A DNA stretch of 64,000 bases from Malus domestica (lineage: Eukaryota > Streptophyta > Magnoliopsida > Rosales > Rosaceae): contig NC_091666.1 of the NCBI RefSeq assembly GCF_042453785.1, forward strand, positions 28,974,501 through 29,038,500. The letters run 5' to 3'. The translations under genes were made by a program, and so were the position numbers. Shown piece after piece: positions 12,419 through 25,054 of the stretch. How positions within the stretch are numbered: the stretch's first letter is position 1; each line of letters opens with the position of its first letter. The notes beneath the pieces were generated by a model. The model had not been told where the DNA came from. It was given only the letters and a program-made list of their open reading frames with translations, and searched no databases.

Positions 12419-12785
12419 TTCGTAAGAAACAACAATATTTGGCTACTCAAATATGAATAGGAACTCTTACTTAAAATTTCTCAAAATTGTTTGTTGTCAA
12501 TTTATAAAACTTCGTTTTTATAATCAAAACCATTCATTTTATAAATCACTCTATAAAGATCGTCTTTGTAAAAAATCAATTAAAACTAAGGTCATTTAGT
12601 CATCAAACTGTTTAAAAACAAATGAACGGTATTGGTAAAAGTATTACGAATCGTCTATGTATTTACTACAATAAATTGACTAAACGACCTTATTTTTAAT
12701 TTATTTTTTCAGAGATGATCTTTACAGTGTGATTCATAGTATGAATGATTATGATCATAAGCACAAAGCTCTTAGATTAAAACAC
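12419..12785. mobile_element. Left part of a fold-back MITE split by a Harbinger insertion
   Basis: Two long inverse arms face each other: CTATAAAGATCGTCTTTG with AAAACTAAGGTCATTTAGTC near 12550-12600, and GACTAAACGACCTTATTTTT with GATGATCTTTACAG near 12690-12730. The outer end (AACAATATTTGGCTACTC, AGGAACTCTTACTTAAAA) pairs with the inverse sequence at 21795-21853, on the far side of the 9-kb element. Relatives of the whole MITE lie in both MSRA introns near 49260-49530 and 52850-53130. Confidence 0.65.
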
Positions 12786-13156
12786 TAAGGGTGCGTTTGT
12801 TGCGCCGGACTGTCTCGGACTGGACTAGCTGCCGGGACTAAGCTGGACTGGCTTAGACTGGACTAAGCTGGACTAACTTAGTGAAGCGTTTGGTGCAGTC
12901 TCGGACTAAGAAGCAGGATAAGAAAAACAGTACTGTTCACCAAATTTGTGTTTGCTTAGACTAGGACTACAAATTTTTGCCATTGTGTAATAGAGTAATG
13001 CTACAAATCTCATGATATGGGTTAATTGGAGCATATTTTTGCCATGTATATTATGAATCTTAAAAAAAATTGACAATTGTTTTGTTTCTATTACCTGCTA
13101 ATAGAATTGGGTTTAATTTGCAAATGTAGCTTGATTTAAACTCTATCACCCAACAG

Positions 13157-14502
13157 AAGAAATATTTTGCCTTAACTGAATTGCTAGCTCTCAGTGGGTT
13201 TGAGTGGAATGAAGAGAAAATGATGTTGGCTTGTGAGAAAAGTGCGTATGACGAGGCTACGAAGGTTTGCGTATATCTGATTGTATTTTTTGTTTTATCT
13301 GATTGTGTTTTGTTTTTAGAATCTCAGTTCCTTGATTAATTACACTGAGTTCAAAATCTCAGAGTTAATATCATCATCTTCTTAATTACGAATCAGGATA
13401 ATGCACTAACAACATACATAGAAAAAGAAAAACCTCAATGGGAGGTAATTCCAAGTTCTTTACTGACACCATCACCATACACTCAGAAACCACTTGAAGC
13501 TAGATATTAGAAGGATTACAGTGCACATAAACAAAAACTGAGACTTGTATGAAAGACATAGCTTTTTAAATACCAGCTCTTTCATACTGTAAAGAAAAAA
13601 GAGTTATGACAAACTTATAGATGATCTGTTGATCTGCCAGCTTGTGTGGCAACATAAAAGAGTATATATATATATGTATATCTTTTCGGAAAGGTTCACC
13701 CATCATCCCTCTGAAAAAAGGAAAAACTTAACATTATTTTTTTGTTTTCCATAGCTAGCACACGTCAAAACATCCTGCCCTGTCCATTATTAATTGTTCT
13801 GCCTCTTGTCCTTTCTTCAAAGATCGATTTTTCACTTCTTCCTCTTTACGCTGCCCTCTTCATCCTGTAATAGACCAAGAATTAATATATTGTATTACAC
13901 GTCTTGTGTTTTGTGTTTTTTTTTTGTAGGGTAAAAAGGATGCAAGTGGATTGTACGATAAGCCTTTTCCGCACTACCACAGTTTGGGAGAGATTTATGC
14001 AAAAGATCGTGCTATGGGTGCAAATGCTGGTAACGCTGATGACGATGAAGAAGAAGTTAGACTTGAAGATGCCAATGTCAATCAACATGAAGGTGAGGAT
14101 GAAAGTGGAAATGACTTTGATACTTCTTTCTCAGTACCAAATACCCAACAACAAAGGAATGCAGAAAGTAACACATCAAACATTAGTCGCAAAAGGACAA
14201 GAGTAGCGGATGAAATGGCCAAGCAATTCTCTATTATGGCTAAAGCTATAGCCGATGTGGGACCTAAGATTGATGGTCTAGTTCATGCACTGTCAACCGA
14301 TATAAATCTGACCGAAATGCAACAAAAACTTGATAGTGAGTTGACCAAAATGGAGTTTTTGTCTCCCATGGATTTATTTAAAGTCACTAACTTCTTGGCC
14401 AAAGAACATGACCTTTTGAGGGTGTTTTTCAACATGTCTGATGAAAGGAAGAGTGCATATGTGACTACTTTGTTGCAGACTTGGATGCATAACGACATCT
14501 AA
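13157..14502 (+). pseudogene. 5'-truncated Myb/SANT-like gene remnant
   Basis: Two joined pieces can be read. 13157-13264 encodes KKYFALTELLALSGFEWNEE and on to EKSAYDEATK. 13930-14502 continues in phase with GKKDASGLYDKPFPHYHSLG and EIYAKDRAMG, then an acidic linker, then a helical C-terminus ending at the stop in 14500-14502. This is the second half of the plant Myb/SANT-like (L10-interacting MYB, Myb_DNA-bind_3) family. The first half, with the tryptophan repeat, is not found upstream, so the gene is truncated. It runs opposite to the intact SANT gene of the same transposon and is not a close copy of it. It may come from a second Harbinger element nested or recombined here. Confidence 0.6.
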
Positions 14503-15190
14503 GTGATGGTCCAAATAATGTGAATGCTAGTTTTTTGCTATGACGTGCTTACTGCCATAATGACATATCAGGGAAAATTGTGAATGTTTTGTAAATCTAA
14601 TGACTTATTAGATGACACCATAATGGTGAAGAACTACTTTTTGTTGGTATTATGATGTTTAGGCAGGTTAAGAATATTTTGTTGACAATCTGATGTGTAG
14701 GCAGGTTATGAATATTTGATAATATGATGCATACGCAGGGTATGACAAGTTTGCTTAGGTTGGTTATGGTGGTTAGATAGATGTACTTTAATGTAAAATA
14801 TTAACTTTAATGAAGTTATTTCCTACTCTTTGTTTGTTACTAATATTTTTTTCTTCATTTATTTACTATTATACAAAATCCACCTCTTGAAGATCACTTT
14901 AGTTCAAGGGGAATCAAGTTTTTTGATTTGAAATGGTAAAACAAAATTTCTTCTACTCCTTGACATTATGTAGCAAAATATATTCTTGAAGAGTTAAGAC
15001 TGAAAATGCTCCTAACAATTTCTTTCCATGTCCTTCTTGCTCATTAAGCATAATTCTATGCTCATTCACATTATGCACAACCAGTGGCGGAGCCAGGAAT
15101 CTTACCACAAGGGGTCGTAGTGTAAAAGTCCAGAAAAAAAATTTAGGATGGAAATGTTAAAGTTAATGCTTTACTTAAACTGATTATGTG
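14503..15190. other. Non-coding part of the Harbinger interval
   Basis: AT-rich 3' region behind the SANT remnant. At 15082-15098 it has CAGTGGCGGAGCCAGGA, a word often seen near the edges of plant transposon insertions. I cannot assign it to a bounded element. No gene is seen. Confidence 0.35.
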
Positions 15191-15197
15191 TAAAAGG

Positions 15198-15682
15198 GCT
15201 GACTGTTGCCTTTATTAGTCGACCCATTCTATTTATCAGTCGACCCAATTACTTCAGTCGGCTTATGTATTGAACTAGGGCTGACTGTTGCCTTTATCAG
15301 TCGACCCATTCTATTTATCAGTCGACCCATTCTATTTATCAGTCGACCCAATTACTTCAGTCGGCTTATGTATTGAACTAATTCTGTGTAAAAGGGCTGA
15401 CTGTTGCCTTTATCAGTCGACCCATTCTATTTATCAGTCGACCCATTCTATTTATCGACCCATTCTATTTATCAGTCGACCCATTTTATTTATCAGTCGA
15501 CCTAGAGTAAATTCAATCGATCTAAAGTAACTCCTAAATACATGCAGAATCAGTTTGTTACTCAATGCATAATCAGTTTGTTACTTCATGCAGAATCAGT
15601 TTGTTACTCAATGCAGAATCAATTTGTTACTTCATGCAGAATCAGTTTGTTACTCAATGCAAAATCAGTTTGTTACTATTAT
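15198..15682. repeat. Two adjoining minisatellites
   Basis: 15198-15510 is built from a 21-bp unit (CAGTCGACCCATTCTATTTAT) set in a longer unit that also contains GGGCTGACTGTTGCCTTTAT and ACTTCAGTCGGCTTATGTAT. 15545-15680 is about six copies of a roughly 22-bp unit with GCAGAATCAGTTTGTTACT. Neither codes for a sensible protein; the 80-residue frame across the first block is repeat translation. Confidence 0.75.
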
Positions 15683-15724
15683 ATACTATATAAAAAAATA
15701 TTAAAAAAAAGTATATAAAATATT

Positions 15725-15946
15725 TGATTTGGGACAAGGGCATTTTAGTAATCATACTGGTTTATATTCCGATTCTGCTGAATTAGTAAACAGCTTTATG
15801 GAATTGTATTCCGATTCCAGACAGTTTTAGTAAACAATTTCAACAAGAATCTGATTCTGATTCCACCTCATTTCAATTCCTCCTCAATCAAATTCCTCCT
15901 CAATCCGATTCCTCTCAATTTGATTACGGATTAGTAAACGCGCCAT
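15725..15946. mobile_element. Possible terminus of a second, nested DNA element
   Basis: The stretch repeats GATTCCGATT and ATTAGTAAAC words and ends GATTAGTAAACGCGCCA followed by TAA. Inverted, this reads TGGCGCGTTTACTAATC, the style of a Harbinger or hAT terminal repeat. No matching left end was found, so it may be a remnant joined to the SANT remnant at 13157-14502. Weak call. Confidence 0.35.
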
Positions 15947-16196
15947 AATAGTGGCCAATACATGCAACTTCAACAAATACAAGTACATAAGATCTCCATA
16001 ATTTAGAAAATCCTAGTTAACATTAGTTAACATTAGCCAAAATAGATCTCTATAATTTACAAAATGGCTAGTTAACATAAGCCAAAATACTAGTGCAAAG
16101 CTAAGTTATAAGTCATAACATAAGATTGTATGATTAATAAAATACATCCATGTTAACGTTAATAAAATACATCCATGTTAACATTAGCCAAAATCC

Positions 16197-17187
16197 TCAT
16201 CCGCTTGCGTTGTCGCTTAAAAGCCTTTGGACGAACACTTTCTTGAGTTCCGGTTTGATTGCCCTGAACACTCCCACATTTTTTGGTTTATCCAAAATAA
16301 GAGACAATGCATCAATTTGATCCATAGGAGAGAGACCCATTGCTTCAAGTTCATTAGCTATGTCAGTATGATCTGCAGTACCTTGAACTAAAGCTTCAGT
16401 TACCATTTGCATCCTCTTCCCACTTTCAACATAAAAATCTTTCAGTCCACTGATAATTGCCTCGGTTCCATCACTTGAACTTCCCACAGCTCTTTTCCTC
16501 TTTCTTTGGCTATTTTCAGATGGGGTGCTTTGTTGGCTTTGTTGGTTCATTGAAGAAACAAAATTTTCACCTCCAATATCACTTTCACCAACATGATCAT
16601 GACTTTGTTCCTCCACCATTTGAGCAGGGGTTTCGGCTACATTACCCGTAGCCCGATCTTTTCCAAATATATATGCAAATCTATCAAACAGTGGAAAAGG
16701 TTTGCTTCTCCATCCATCGGCTTCTTTATTTCTCTAAGATTATATCAACATAGCAAAACTAAAATTTAGCATGCGTAACAAATATAGGAGCAAGAATATA
16801 ACTAATGCATAAATAAAATAGGATATGAACCTGCACATAAGTTTGCCATGCGTCATCACTGTCAACTTCAACGCACTTTTTGACATCATTCCATACAAAT
16901 CCACTTGTGTTTATCATGTCAACGACCATACTATATGTTTTTTTCCATTTCTTCAACTTGGACTCAATATGTGGATTTGCCTTTATATTTGAATGAGGAC
17001 ATAAAACATTGACAGCTTTTGCTATTTCAACCAAAGTACCTTGTTTGAAAGCACCGGTGTCACACCGTTGCTTCCGAGCAACAAAATCCTCAAGAACTCC
17101 TAGTAATACTTCTTCCTCAAATGCTTCCCATTTACGCCTTCTTCCTTTTGGCTCTTGAGTAGCATTCAAAATATTATCGTTATCCAT
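16197..17187 (-). CDS. Harbinger ORF1: Myb/SANT-like DNA-binding protein
   Basis: Two exons on the minus strand, 17187-16831 and 16733-16197, join in phase 0 to 297 residues. Residues about 15-130 form the Myb/SANT-like domain (RRKWEAFEEEVLLGVLEDFV, ESKLKKWKKTYSMVVDMI, GFVWNDVKKCVEV, then PFPLFDRFAYIFGKDRATG). The C-terminus is acidic with a basic RKRKRAVG patch and a helical tail. In PIF/Harbinger elements this protein binds the transposon ends and helps bring the transposase into the nucleus. It lies 3' of the transposase gene on the same strand. There is no internal stop, so it looks complete. Confidence 0.82.
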
Positions 17188-17387
17188 ACCTAAACAAAAA
17201 ATATTTTAATGAAGGAAAATACCATACAAATAATCAATTTGCATAATATCCAATCAACTTGCATAATATCCAATCAACTTGCATAATATCCAATTAATTT
17301 GCATACCATCCAATCATTGTGCTAATATCTAACAAATGCATGATAAAAAGGAATACTAAAATAAAATGTTATCATTAAAACATATAG

Positions 17388-18770
17388 CTAGTTCGGTTGC
17401 TGGTTCCTAATTGCTCTCCACTCATTATACATTTCCTGAGCCATATCATTCCTCATTGCAGTCCACTGGTCCGATGTTTGAACACTACCAACATATTCAC
17501 CTTCTTCTGTATTTTGTTCATCTTCTATTATTGGCAAATTCTCCATTTGATCTACTGACATCTCTTGCCTAATAAGATTGTGTAGTAGGCAACAAGCGGT
17601 AATTATTCGACCTTGTGTCCTTATCGGATAGAAAGATGGACTCCTTAGTATCGACCACCTTCCTTTTAGCAAGCCAAAACAGCGTTCAATTACATTCATT
17701 GCCTTAGAATGCTTCATGTTAAAATATTCTTCCTTATTAGAAGGTGTTCGTCCCTCCCATTCAGATAAATGATAAGGTATTCCTCTATAGGGTGCAAGGA
17801 ATCCTTCACCATTTGTATAACCACCATCTACAAGGTAATAACAACCTAATGAAAAAAAAAAACAGACCTTATTAGTGTTTTGTAGTTGACAAACAGAACT
17901 AAACCTAACTTACAAAGTTGAGACTAAGTAATAGTCTTACCCGCTGGTACCTTAAAACCATTAGGCCTACTAATCGCATCATGTAGCACTCTAGAGTCTG
18001 ATGCGGAACCCTCCCACCCCGGAAACACATATATGAACTGCATATCTCCTGAACACACACCTAACACATTAGTTGCGACTCGACCCTTTCTTGTTCGGTA
18101 TCTTGGTTTGTCAATTTCAGGTACATGCACATCAATGTGTGTTCCATCCAATGCTCCCAAGCAATTCTTAAAAACCAAAAATAATAAACTTTTTGTTAAT
18201 TTATACAAAGGGAATGAAGAGTTAAAGCTTAGGGAAAATGAAAAAAATTTCTCATCATACCTTAAAACATCGCCACCTAGCATCTGTAGAATCAATAGGC
18301 ACAGGCTGGGGGACTTTTAGTAGGGTACATTGTAATCGCAAAATTCCTTGCAATACGCTATTGAAATACCTACTTATAGTCTCTCCCGACCTATAAAATC
18401 TACCGCCAACACTACGATTCTTAGTATGATGTGCTAATATTTGTAAAGTCATACACACCTGTTCCTCTACAGACACCAAACCATCAGTTTTTACCCTCCC
18501 ATCTTGACGAAGTAAGTCGCATAATATGCCAAAAGTCATTCTATCCATTCTCAATTCGTTAACACATTCAGTATCAGTATTCCCTATTATACCATTCAGA
18601 TAACACAAACTAATCTCTCGTCTAATAAGTGAACGGTTAGTCAATGTGGGTCGTTCAACATGTCTCTGTTTGCCACGTAGCATCATCACCACAAGAATCG
18701 TACAAATACAAATTGTCTCCAAATAAGACATCTCTAACAATAAGATCAATAAAAGCTTCCTTCGATCCAT
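17388..18770 (-). CDS. Harbinger transposase (HARBI1-like, DDE)
   Basis: Three exons on the minus strand, 18770-18261, 18166-17941 and 17845-17388, total 1194 nt, or 397 residues, with no stop and all junctions in phase. Family landmarks: [15 protein letters not shown], a helix-turn-helix-like middle ([20 protein letters not shown]), then the DDE_4 nuclease. Its acidic residues are Asp177 (GALDGTHID), Asp252 ([13 protein letters not shown]) and Glu299 ([14 protein letters not shown]), all present. The length is usual for plant Harbinger transposases. Four 51-bp repeats lie just upstream of the start. With the intact ORF1 this makes an autonomous element likely. Confidence 0.88.
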
Positions 18771-18813
18771 ATCTATCCAAACAAAAAAAAAACAATAAAC
18801 AAATTAACTAAAT

Positions 18814-18983
18814 CATTAACCCGAGGCAACAAATATACAGGTGGCGTTGAAAAAAAAAAGTTTTCATTAACCCGAGGCAACAAATATACAGGTGGCGTTG
18901 AAAAAAAAAAACTTTTCATTAACCCGAGGCAACAAATATACAGGTGGCGTTGAAAAAAAAAAGTTTTCATTAACCCGAGGCAT
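18814..18983. repeat. Four 51-52-bp repeats upstream of the transposase start
   Basis: The word AACCCGAGGC recurs at 18818, 18869, 18921 and 18972. Each is followed by AACAAATATACAGGTGGCGT and a poly-A run; the last copy is partial. On the minus strand they lie 50-210 bp before the transposase ATG, in the promoter or 5' UTR. The copies are almost identical, suggesting recent amplification. Confidence 0.8.
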
Positions 18984-19204
18984 CATATTCAAAATGTTCT
19001 ACTCTTATACATCTATAAACATGTGTCTAAGAACACTAGTATGAGGATTGCTATCATTGCTAGGCATTGCATGTGAAAAGGGAAATTAAAGGACACCTGT
19101 AATGCAGTAGCCTTAGCCTTAGCCTTCCGTTTATGCTCCTCTTCTCTGCAACCAACAACCACAACAAATTGCAATTCAGCATCAACCCCACACAATACAA
19201 AACA

Positions 19205-20580
19205 TTCACATTGTATACACACTGCATACATACACACTGCAAACACAGTACATACATACACACACTACATACACTGCATACACTACACACACACTACATA
19301 CACTACACACACACACTGCATACATACACACTGCAAACACAGTACATACATACACACACTCACATACACTACACACACACACTACATACACTACACACAC
19401 ACCCTGCAAGTACACACACAATGCATACATACATACACACACTGCATACACCCTGCATACACCCTGCATACATACACACTGCATACACAGTACACAAACA
19501 CACACACTGTATACACCTTGCACACACAGTACACAAACACACACACACTACATACACTACACACACACACTGCATACACTACACACACACCCTGCAAGTA
19601 CACACACAGTGCATACATACATACACACCCTGCATACATACACACTGCATACACAGTACACAAACACACACACTGCATACACCTTGCACACACAGTACAC
19701 ACACACTGCACACACACACAATGCATACACACTCATTCACACACACACTGCACACACACACTGCTTACACACTGCACACACACACACTGCATACACACTC
19801 ACACTCACACTCACACTCACTCACACTCACTACATACACTACACACACACACTGCAAACACAGTACACTACACACACTACATACACTGCATACACTACAC
19901 ACATACACACTTATTCACACACACACTGCACACACACACACTGCTTACACACTGCACACACACACACTGCACACACACTCACACTCACACTCACTCACAC
20001 TCACTACATACACTACACACACACACTGCATACATACACACTGCAAACACAGTACACTACACACACTACATACACTTCATACACTACACCCTGCATACAT
20101 ACACTACACACACACTGCATACATACACACTGCAAACACAGTACACTACACACACACACTACATACACTACACACACACACTGCATACACTACACACACA
20201 CCCTGCAAGTACACACACACTGCATACACCCTGCATACATACACACTGCAAACACAGTACATACATACACACACTACATACACTGCATACACTACACACA
20301 CACTACATACACTACACATACACACTGCATACATACACACTGCAAACACAGTACATACATACACACAGTACATACACTACACACACACACACACACACAC
20401 TACATACACTACACACACACACTGCATACACTACACACACACCCTGCAATACACACACAGTGCATACATACATACACACACTGCATACACCCTGCATACA
20501 CCCTGCATACATACACACTGCATACACAGTACACAAACACACACTGTATACACCTTGCACACACAGTACACAAATGACAC
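19205..20580. repeat. 1.4-kb compound CA-rich satellite
   Basis: The whole stretch is built from ACACAC, CATACA, CTGCATACA, CTACATACA and AGTACA words in higher-order units, such as CACTGCATACATACACACTG, repeated many times. It stays open in several frames on both strands because the units contain few stop triplets. This gives apparent proteins of up to 493 residues made only of His, Thr, Tyr, Cys and Ile. These are not genes. It lies inside the Harbinger element between the transposase and the SEC61-gamma-like gene. Confidence 0.9.
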
Positions 20581-21198
20581 CGTAATCTTATATTATTACA
20601 TACGAATCGAATAAATTCAAGATACAAGATCTTTGGACCAATTTTATGAATCAATATTCTGTTAAACGTCCTTGATTCGGTATCAATTTCCTAAGACACA
20701 TAAAGCAGAATAATAGAGCAACAGAGTAAAACCAGAACTCAAACTAATCAATCGTGCCTCAAGAAGATCTCCCTATTTAGATCATATCACCAGATTCACC
20801 ACATCCATTTCTACCAAATATCACGATGCAGACTATCCGTTCCAAACCATTAACGTAATCCGAATGAAACACTCAAAACCAAGAGCGATGCACACATCTA
20901 AACATAAAGTTGATAAAAATCTCAACATTAAAGAACCATTTCAACTATATTGGCATAGAAGAAAAACCAAACATCTGTGTGTGTGTATACATATGCAACT
21001 CAACCACTACATTCCTCATTGAAACTTTTGATTCGTTTATAAAATTAAACAAACAACAATTACCAAAATCAAATTAATCCGAATTCCAACTAATAAACAA
21101 CCTAATCAAATCATACATCGATCAAGCAAACCAATCAAATCTCCACAATTTCCATCAATAATTTTCAATCAATGGATTTGATTAGATCCAATAAATAC
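20581..21198. other. Non-coding DNA 3' of the SEC61-gamma-like gene
   Basis: AT-rich with no gene. On the minus strand it would hold the 3' UTR of the SEC61-gamma-like gene. A short GT run (GTGTGTGTA) is at about 20976. Confidence 0.4.
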
Positions 21199-21575
21199 CT
21201 AAACAGATCCAACGATGATATTGTTGATGGGGATGAAGATCAGCTTGACGAAGAACCCGACGAAACCCATCACGACGAACCCGATCGCTGTCCGGAGCGC
21301 GACCTTGGAGAATTCTACACGACAATCAACCATCAAATCTCATCAATTACACATGCATATCAAAGAATATAACTTGTGAGAAAACACAGATCCGACCCGA
21401 ATGCTGAATTACCTTTGCGATCGGGCTTGTGGCAGCGCTTGACGAGGCGAATGCTGTCCTTGGAGAACTCTCGGAGCAGATCTGTTACGTGAAGACGAGG
21501 GAGCGGACGACAAGAGGAACAGATGAGGAGCAGGATGCAGATGAGGGCGACCAGGATGCAGCTGACGGCGAGCAT
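21199..21575 (-). CDS. SEC61G: SEC61-gamma-like translocon subunit with altered N-terminus
   Basis: Two exons on the minus strand, 21575-21413 and 21314-21199, join in phase to 92 residues. The family core is complete: [20 protein letters not shown], then after the intron [20 protein letters not shown] and [18 protein letters not shown], with the single C-terminal membrane helix. SEC61-gamma is the small tail-anchored subunit of the ER protein channel. The usual start (MDA..SV.DPLREF, about 69 residues) is missing. The frame instead runs upstream through a hydrophobic 31-residue leader starting [14 protein letters not shown]. An intron is retained, so this is a DNA copy and not a retrocopy. 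It lies inside the Harbinger ends and is probably captured. Whether it is expressed is open. Confidence 0.72.
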
Positions 21576-21794
21576 GACGCAGAGATGAGGAGGACGACGT
21601 GAGGGAGGAGGTCTTACGAATCCGGACGTTTTTGGGGTGGTTCGCTAAGAACTGCTAGCGAAGGGTTTAATCCGTGCGAGTCGGATCTAATCTCATTAAA
21701 CGTAATCCTTGCCCCTACCAAACATCAGACTACAATACCAATTAGTGTAGTCTAGTCCAGTCCCCCCTAAGAAGGTCAAACAAACACGCCCTAA

Positions 21795-21853
21795 GAGTTT
21801 TGAGTAGGAGTTCTTACTCATTTTTTAATAACCAAGCATTGTTCCGTAAAAAA
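21795..21853. mobile_element. Right part of the fold-back MITE split by Harbinger
   Basis: GAGTTTTGAGTAGGAGTTCT and AATAACCAAGCATTGTTCC are the inverse of the left MITE end at 12419-12490. They also match, in order, the intact relatives in the MSRA introns (GAGTTTTGAGTCGAAGTT, AGCCAAGCATTATC near 49489-49540). One TAA lies between the element end and this half. Confidence 0.65.
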
Positions 21854-22441
21854 TTTGAGTGAAGGATAACCGTTAATGTTTTCGTTGACAGAAACTTGAC
21901 GGAAATGGTCGGTGACGGAAAGAGAAACACATGAAGGGATGGGGGCTTCCGGTTACAGTTCTGAAATAAATTTCATCGTTTAATTCAATTTGTTAAAACT
22001 TGGTTAGAATTTTTACTCAAAAAGAATGGTTATTAGCACTTCAAATAAAGTACTTTTTATTTTTTCAACAAACAAGGTACGTTTTTGGGTGGAACAAAAT
22101 TTTAAAATGTGGTTCAAATCCGCTTTTCGCAAAAATCAAACTTAAGATCAGGAATACCACTAGATCGTAGTACGGTAAAATTGAAAATTTTGGGTAAAAA
22201 TAGGGGTGATGAGTGTCCTAATTACACTATTTGGTGTAAATAAATTCCTAAATTCTTTAAAGCCCACACATCATGCAAATTTGGGATTTTGACTTCTAAA
22301 GCCCAAATTACACGTCAACCCATACTCCTTCTGAGATTGCCCCAAACCGCAAAACGCACCGTCTAATCCCTCATTTCCCAGGAGATAGTGCTGTTGCTAG
22401 TAGCAAAAGCTAGCAGCAGCTTATCCAAAAGGCGCCAAACC
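21854..22441. other. Intergenic DNA and PPR promoter
   Basis: No gene. At about 22140-22190 a short SINE-like relic reads AGGAATACCACTAGATCGTA, similar to the tRNA-like head of the SINE at 39194-39352. The last 150 bases are the likely promoter and 5' UTR of the PPR gene. Confidence 0.45.
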
Positions 22442-25054
22442 ATGGCTCTCATCCGCCACCAACTCTCTCGTCCTCCGTCACTTCCCTCCTCCCGCAGCCA
22501 CCCTCCACCAAACCACCACTTCCCAAAACCCTGCCTCTTCGTATTCTCCAAAAACCTCAGACTCTTCTCTCTCTACTCAGCTCCGCCCACTCCCTCCTCT
22601 CTCTCCTCCGCCCCCATTTTCCTCCCCTTTCTTCAAAACCAAGAGGAAGAAGACGAAGACGAAACTGAAGAAGAAACAGAAGAGCCACCAGCACTCGAAG
22701 AAGATGAAGAAGAGGAGGAGGACCCAGATGACCCAATTCTCAGATTCTTCAAGTCCCGCACTTCAACCCAAGACCCTGAGCGCGAAGGCAAGTTCTCTCT
22801 CCAAAAGAACCGCCGCTCCGCTTGGCGTTTGGCTGACGGTACCCACCTCGCAGACGAATCGGAACCCGAAACCGGCGTCAAAAAACTGCTCGGAGAACAG
22901 AAACAAGTTGGTCCAATCAAATTTGGTTCAAATGCATCGCCTGAGGGAATTGTCCAAGAGATTCTGCAAAAGGCAAGGACTTTGCCGCAGAATTTGACGT
23001 TGGGAGAGGCTTTGGGGGGTTTCGAAGGAAGGGTTGGGGAGAAAGAGTGTGTGAAAATATTGGAGGTGATGGGTGAGGAGGGGTTATTGGTGGGTTGCTT
23101 GTATTTCTTTGAGTGGATGGGTTTGCAGGAGCCGTCTCTTGTTACGCCTCGGGCGTGTTCGGTTTTGTTTCCGATGCTGGGGAGAGCTGGAATGGGGGAT
23201 AAGTTGATGATTTTGTTTAGGAATTTACCGGCCAAGAAGGAGTTCTGGGATGTTCATGTGTATAATGCTGCAATTTCGGGCTTAATGTGCTCCAAGAGGT
23301 ATGAAATGCTTTGATAATTGTGTTTTATTTTGCCGTTTGGAAGTTTAGATTTCGCTTTTCGGTCAATTTGTAGTGATATTATTAATTGTAGTCTGGCTAT
23401 GAGAAGAACGGACTATTGATATATCATCGAAAATGTACTGATCTCACAATGTACCAACATATTGTAGAAGCATTTTTGACAATATCGATGCACATAGAAC
23501 TTTTGTTGGTAGTTGTCTGAGTAGGGTGTTATATGATGAGTTACTGGAAGTTTGAATTGTTGGGATTTTATGCATGTTTCAGTGGACCCGAGGCAATGCC
23601 TTCGTGCTATTTGCATTATGTTCTTAATCCAAGTTGTTTGATTATTAGTTGAAAGAACAAAAATTTTGGGAAAGTTGTTGTTGATGCTTGCAAAAGATAA
23701 AGTAACTTGCTAGAATTCATTTGATAATATTTACTGACTTTTTTTCAGGTACGATGACGCTTGGAAGGTGTATGAGACTATGGAAGCAAATAATACCCTT
23801 CCGGATCATGTGACATGTTCAATCATGATTACTGTCATGAGAAAAGTTGGACGTAGTGCAAAAGATTCATGGCAGTTCTTCGAGAGAATGAACAGGAAAG
23901 GTGTCAGATGGAGTCAAGAAGTTTTGGGTGCTCTTATAAAATCATTCTGTGATGAGGGGTTGAAGAGAGAAGCCCTTATCATTCAAGTAGAAATGGAGAA
24001 GAAAGGGGTCTCATCAAACGCCATTGTGTATAACACTTTAATGGATGCCTTCTGTAATTCAAACCAAGTTGAAGAAGCTGAAGGTCTCTTTGCCGAGATG
24101 AAATCAAAAGGGATTAAACCAACAGCTGCCACCTTCAATGTTCTAATGAGTGCATACAGCAGAAAAATGGAGCCGGAGATTGTTGAGAAGCTGCTGGTCG
24201 AAATGCAGGATATGGGACTAAAGCCAAATGTCAAATCCTATACTTGTCTTATCAGTGCATATGGGAGGCAGAAGAAGATGAGTGATATGGCTGCGGATGC
24301 TTTTTTGAGGATGAAGAAGGTTGGTATTCGTCCAACATCACATTCTTATACAGCTCTTATTCACGCGTTTTCAGTCAGCGGCTGGCATGAGAAGGCTTAC
24401 ATTGCATTCGAAAACATGCAAAAAGAAGGACTAAAGCCCTCCATAGAAACCTATACTGCTTTACTGGATGCATTTAGGCGTGCTGGTGACGCGCAGATGT
24501 TGATGAAAATTTGGAAACTGATGATCAAAGAGAAGATTGTGGGGACTAAGGTGACATACAACACTCTTCTCGATGGATTTGCCAAACAAGGGCACTATGT
24601 GGAAGCAAGAGATGTGATTTCCGAATTTGGTAATGTAGGCTTGCAGCCAACTGTGATGACATATAATATGCTGATGAATGCGTATGCACGGGGAGGGCAA
24701 CACTCAAAGTTACCACAGCTGTTGAAAGAGATGGCAGCTCTCAAGTTAAAACCTGATTCTGTAACTTACTCGACCATGATTTATGCCTATGTTCGTGTTC
24801 GTGATTTCAGACGAGCATTTTTCTACCACAAGCAAATGGTAAAAAATGGACAAGTGCCAGATGCCAGGTCTTATGAGAAGCTTAGGTCAATTTTGGATGT
24901 GAAGGCTGCACGGAAGAACAAAAAGGACAAGAATGCTATACTTGGTATAATTAATAGCAAAATGGGTTTGTTGAAAGTTAAAAAGAAGGGAAAGAAAGAT
25001 GAGTTCTGGAAGAACAAGAACAAGCGTTATGTCAGAACTGATAACTCAGAGTGA
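22442..25054 (+). CDS. EMB1006: Plastid PPR protein, EMB1006/At5g50280-like
   Basis: Two exons, 22442-23298 and 23749-25054, total 2163 nt, or 720 residues. The start ATG sits in a good plant context (ACCATGGCT). The first 60 residues are rich in Ser, Pro and Arg, like a plastid transit peptide, and a very acidic Glu/Asp stretch follows (about 65-100). From about residue 230 the chain is P-class pentatricopeptide repeats of 35 residues (VYNTLMDAFCNSNQVEEAEG, TFNVLMSAYSRKMEPEIVEK, SYTCLISAYGRQKKMSDMAA and others), about ten in all. The C-terminal tail is Lys-rich (KVKKKGKKDEFWKNKNKR). There is no E, DYW or SMR domain. P-class PPRs bind organelle RNA and stabilise or process transcripts. Length and tail fit Arabidopsis EMB1006, which is needed for embryo development. 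The orthology call is from memory. Confidence 0.85.

Follow-up and report, generated by a model that had tools for sequence, protein, structure and literature searches.

A SEC61-gamma gene fragment captured by a PIF/Harbinger element of apple and carried to 13 places

The window analysed here, a stretch of 64,000 nucleotides of the Malus domestica genome, contains a whole PIF/Harbinger element in which part of a SEC61-gamma gene is embedded. We conclude with high confidence that a PIF/Harbinger element captured this block and was then amplified to 13 places. The donor gene was found on the same contig, the element copies descend from a single capture and are flanked by target-site duplications (TSDs), and the native start of the gene was lost on the way. 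An earlier note on this DNA, made from the sequence alone, had proposed such a gene capture. The proposal is borne out by 13 carriers with the same breakpoints, by a donor 25 Mb away and by the existence of SEC61-free members of the family.

The features of the element are collected in the table. The left TIR reads GGGTGCGTTTGTTGCG and the right TIR, on the minus strand, reads GGGCGTGTTTGTTTG. The 3-bp TSDs, mostly TAA or TTA in the family, the DDE_Tnp_4-type transposase and a second ORF with a Myb/SANT-like domain place the element in the PIF/Harbinger superfamily. Within the ORF1 region, the ORF at 16759-17187 matches Pfam family PF12776 (E = 1.6e-9). Two of the predicted transposase exons match PF13359 (E = 1e-8 and 4.2e-9) and the first-exon ORF has no Pfam match. 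The transposase also contains the motifs LDGTH, SASDSRV and VIERCFG, which we take to be the DDE triad sites. CA-rich arrays related to the internal satellite also occur in SEC61-free family members.

Features of the element and of its cargo in the window (positions count from the first letter of the window).
Feature	Positions	Strand	Remarks
PIF/Harbinger element, whole, 9,003 bp	12789-21791		Ends common to other copies; flanks differ
Left target-site duplication, TAA	12786-12788		Identical to TAA at 21792-21794
Right target-site duplication, TAA	21792-21794
Segment with ORF 14014-14502(+), no Pfam match	13166-15944		Missing from five short carriers
ORF1 region, Myb/SANT-like DNA-binding protein	16197-17187	minus
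Transposase, DDE_Tnp_4, three predicted exons, 397 aa	17388-18770	minus	Frame open in the window
Putative splice acceptor, (T)n..GGATAG/AT	18771-18792	minus	Immediately ahead of transposase ATG
CA-rich satellite, about 1.4 kb, period about 11 bp	19190-20572		Within predicted 5'-UTR intron
Captured SEC61-gamma block, 905 bp	20573-21477	minus	97% to donor; same ends in 13/13 carriers
SEC61-gamma exon 2 with native stop	21199-21314	minus	Stop at 21201-21199
SEC61-gamma intron 1	21315-21412	minus	Donor and acceptor same as native gene
SEC61-gamma exon 1 fragment	21413-21477	minus
Capture junction	21474-21482		GAGC exact in element and donor; 8/9 bases alike
Hydrophobic leader, 31 residues, from terminal exon of the element	21483-21575	minus

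The captured block starts, in gene order, at about codon 9 within exon 1 and continues through intron 1 and exon 2, stop included, into part of a 3'-UTR intron. Left outside are the native first 8 codons with their upstream sequence, and the distal part of the 3'-UTR intron. On our reading, this last intron is delimited by a conserved donor and by an acceptor-like site located beyond the captured block at two loci (L014 and L020). An open reading on the minus strand runs through a first exon (21575-21413, leader plus exon 1 fragment) and exon 2 (21314-21199). Its core covers positions 2-54 of 55 of the Pfam SecE profile (PF00584, E = 6e-14), and the best match to a Sec61-gamma chain of the PDB spans residues 33-90 of the window reading (1.4e-26). 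The block therefore carries a SecE domain in what is neither a complete gene nor one with the native start, MDAIDSVV, which is gone from the element copy. The whole core and the intron had been described as kept, the normal start as lost, and the cargo as placed between the internal satellite and the right end of the element. Each of these points agrees with the data, the satellite ending at about 20572 and the right TIR at 21791. The cargo lies upstream of the transposase gene and in sense relative to it.

A nucleotide search of the whole genome with the cargo (651 Mb in 19 contigs, 16 of 16 candidates scored) identified 13 element-borne copies, one native donor and two more distant SEC61-gamma genes. 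The same 16 places were returned by a genome-wide protein search. The element copies are distributed over 10 contigs, with 99-100% identity to the window. The donor is located at C6:3539790-3540678 (about 3.54 Mb), and shows 97% nucleotide identity to the window cargo over 894 bp, far beyond chance. The earlier note had asked whether a normal copy stands nearby; there is one on the same contig, about 25 Mb off and not adjacent. This gene retains the start MDAIDSVVDPLREF that is missing from the element copies. The distant genes are found on C16 (76%) and on C17 (688.7-689.1 kb, in two pieces). Because the alignment between the C6 and C16 loci reaches beyond the captured block in both directions, we regard the C6 gene as native.

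A search for other elements with the same cargo, also suggested beforehand, yielded the 13 carriers. Point changes aside, both junctions are identical in all of them, and therefore a single capture was followed by amplification. Among the 12 carriers with both ends read, that is all except L009, which was left out for its left end, 11 have equal 3-bp TSDs (TAA, TTA and one TAT). The remaining copy, L007, has unequal ones (CTA/TTA). A native donor elsewhere, sharp breakpoints, a TSD-flanked element with its cargo and several copies are what defines a transduplication, and all are present here. The transposase region is retained in 12 of the 13 carriers. The predicted transposase frame is full-length in 8 of these and ends early in 2 (L032 and L050). 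In the other 2 (L047 and L052), the start or splice pattern did not match in the scan. The exception is the L004/L033 copy on C1, in which 16430-18818 is deleted, transposase included, and both ends and equal TSDs are kept; this copy resembles, from its layout, a non-autonomous Pack-type derivative. The carriers also differ near the left end. Five short ones (L031, L032, L044, L045 and L051), among the carriers aligned through that end, are without 13166-15944. Of the 13 carriers, 7 contain part of this segment, 13700-14700, and 4 further places in the genome match it closely (98-99% identity). The segment may be a nested fragment, since it ends in AAACGCGCC, which is similar to another Harbinger-type terminus.

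The element is inserted in another high-copy repeat: its flanks, 12431-12780 and 21795-21854, match many places, the left one on both strands. A PPR-like gene, recognized by eye, occupies 22442-25054 and starts about 650 bp from the right end of the element. A homoeologous-looking stretch on C14 (L063; 4,055 bp aligned) contains neither the PPR-like gene nor the element, and no SEC61-gamma either. An exact empty site was not obtained, because the element lies inside another repeat and the C14 stretch also lacks the PPR-like gene.

These data bear on a caution raised earlier, namely that the SEC61-gamma gene might be a native neighbour that the element had enclosed. The preservation of intron 1 with both its splice sites would fit this origin, as would a donor on the same contig. 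However, the donor is 25 Mb away, 13 copies on 10 contigs share the same truncated ends, and the genome-wide protein search lists no SEC61-gamma on C14, where the homoeologous-looking region is located. We therefore reject an enclosed native gene, the probability of which is negligible, and retain capture from the C6 gene.

The copies differ from their consensus at 0-6 of 894 bases, and the consensus differs from the donor at 20 of 894 bases and in 5 gap columns. From these distances, the capture appears older than the amplification. None of the 13 copies has lost the open frame of the cargo. A comparison of 57 residues gives the same protein as in the donor for 12 copies, and three changed residues for L013. 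An open and unchanged frame would fit the youth of the copies and would also be compatible with use as a protein.

The 31-residue hydrophobic leader ahead of the core, pointed out in the earlier note, stands as an open frame but not as one with a shared start. The ATG at position 21575 results from a C-to-A substitution that only the window copy has; neither the 12 other carriers nor the 15 SEC61-free copies in the alignment have this ATG. Between the right TIR and the core there is just one further in-frame ATG, 66 bp from the TIR start, and an in-frame stop follows it. In the other 12 carriers, the frame from the last stop down to the core contains no ATG. Because the start is private to the window copy, we rejected a conserved signal peptide. 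One may still imagine that the carriers make a new membrane protein, leader plus SEC61-gamma core, that acts on the translocon or competes with it. The frame open in all 13 copies is in line with this, and so at first sight is the best 19-residue hydropathy of the leader, 3.23, which was reached by 0 of 2000 dinucleotide shuffles; such shuffles break the phase of a 21-bp repeat, so that the excess is no evidence of coding. Indeed, the hydrophobic run overlaps this in-phase tandem repeat and is also found in SEC61-free copies, and we consider for this reason that the hydrophobic frame is older than the fusion. Together with the private ATG and its lack of counterparts in the other 12 copies, this makes a new membrane protein very improbable. 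The proposed protein with two hydrophobic stretches is weakened in the same way, as it relies on that ATG. We infer that the cargo yields no protein product.

SEC61-free relatives suggest another role. At least 15 relatives with the same right end could be aligned, 40 of 426 candidates having been scored. An exact pattern search found a splice-donor-like site, CTG/GTAAG, in 12 of the 15 (it is missed in L016, L019 and L021). Its distance from the right TIR is 338-442 bp in the 11 measurable copies, L018 being left out since its TIR does not match the exact pattern. The captured block replaced the stretch that holds this site, and the carriers inspected are without that stretch. They have instead the donor of SEC61 exon 1 and, just past the stop, the donor of the 3'-UTR intron. 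In one SEC61-free member, L024 on C11, the element adjoins a sequence, perhaps part of a host gene, that has a single further match in the genome, on C3 (82%; both of the 2 candidates scored). A second gene capture was considered for L024 and rejected: with its inner sequence found elsewhere only on C3, it is more likely to be a truncated element that lies next to a host gene.

We propose the following course of events. A transposase-bearing element would have acquired a 905-bp copy from the native SEC61-gamma gene (C6:3.54 Mb). This copy would have come to lie in the interval that separates the right end of the element from its transposase gene. The block would probably be filler copied during gap repair, with template switches at short homologies. 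The homologies at the two junctions, GAGC on one side and only 2-3 bases on the satellite side, where the satellite makes the edge hard to place, are of the kind expected from template-switching repair, which probably lies behind both. The incoming block would have displaced the element DNA that carries the donor-like site in the relatives, and the new version would have spread to 13 places. A hybrid transcript could then consist of a right-end exon, the SEC61 exons, a long intron containing the satellite, and the transposase.

Since the block replaced the donor-like stretch, brings its own donors and is in sense with the transposase, its cargo would most likely represent leader exons rather than a working SEC61-gamma gene. 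Taken by itself, a role as 5'-leader exons of the transposase transcript has, in our view, slightly less than an even chance. More specifically, the element may have survived the loss of its own donor because the SEC61-gamma 3'-UTR donor splices over the satellite to the transposase start; we put this forward tentatively, as a possibility somewhat on the doubtful side. If true, a host gene would be a working part of the transposase transcript, which would explain the spread of the cargo with transposase-carrying copies. SEC61 exon 2 contains an ATG (M of VVMGF) which, within a leader, would stand as a start codon ahead of that of the transposase, and this speaks against a helpful leader.

The cargo may equally be conceived as inert intronic filler, tolerated and spliced into nothing, an explanation that we hold to be a serious one, if short of probable. 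The copies are young, so that intactness needs no selection, and the portion available of a study of grapevine PIF elements (PMC2528002) regards the majority of captured fragments as apparently without function. On the other hand, the capture removed a donor-like site and supplied others in sense, and 12 of 13 carriers kept the transposase region. It is also conceivable, and compatible with the other explanations, that the cargo feeds small RNAs acting on the native SEC61-gamma genes. An 894-bp stretch at 97% identity to the donor would allow such crosstalk, which is described for maize captures in the accessible sections of a review (PMC8616336), but the presumed promoter would read the cargo in sense, and we deem this effect improbable. 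Leader exons remain our preferred role for the cargo.

The window offers a clean young capture inside a transposase-bearing element: a single assembly contains its donor, the breakpoints at either end, family members free of SEC61, and 13 descendants. How PIF elements take up host DNA, and whether captured exons replace splice sites of the element, become testable questions. A SEC61-gamma gene predicted at such a site would in fact be cargo of a transposon.

Capture by PIF/Harbinger elements had been presented in the earlier note as much rarer than Pack-MULE capture. This rarity was overstated, as PIF transduplication appears in the excerpts at hand for both grapevine (PMC2528002) and maize (PMC8903248). 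A 2026 review of gene capture (PMC13317346, as far as its text was available) does not contain the word Harbinger in its main text, and the available text of a paper on Rosaceae transposable elements (PMC11197308) has no word beginning with "captur" or "transduplicat". Among the publications listed, which cover the literature in part, there is no SEC61-gamma capture and no Harbinger gene capture in the apple family. Pack-MULE and Pack-CACTA elements likewise transduplicate gene fragments with sharp edges, but belong to other superfamilies by TIR, TSD and transposase. The part consulted of the review cited above (PMC8616336) traces the Pack-TYPE elements of Arabidopsis to MULE, CACTA and Harbinger elements. 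For maize, in a survey that also took in rice, the available extract of PMC8903248 describes Pack-PIFs; as here, captured coding DNA lies between PIF TIRs. Pack-TYPE elements are defined as non-autonomous, whereas 12 of 13 carriers retain the transposase region in our case and only the L004/L033 copy is without it. The grapevine PIF elements, reported in 2008, have a long 5' region that contains exons and introns from the host, some of them common to several copies (PMC2528002, in part). Pifvine-3 is similar to the apple element in that these exons and introns lie outside ORF1 and transposase, and the PIF TSDs of grapevine are mostly TAA or TTA, as in the carriers. Pifvine-3 differs by its host and its cargo, and the part of that report at hand mentions neither SEC61-gamma nor splice-donor replacement. 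Gene capture by PIF elements was thus already known, and the apple family stands out by its transposase-bearing carriers and by the possible replacement of a splice donor.
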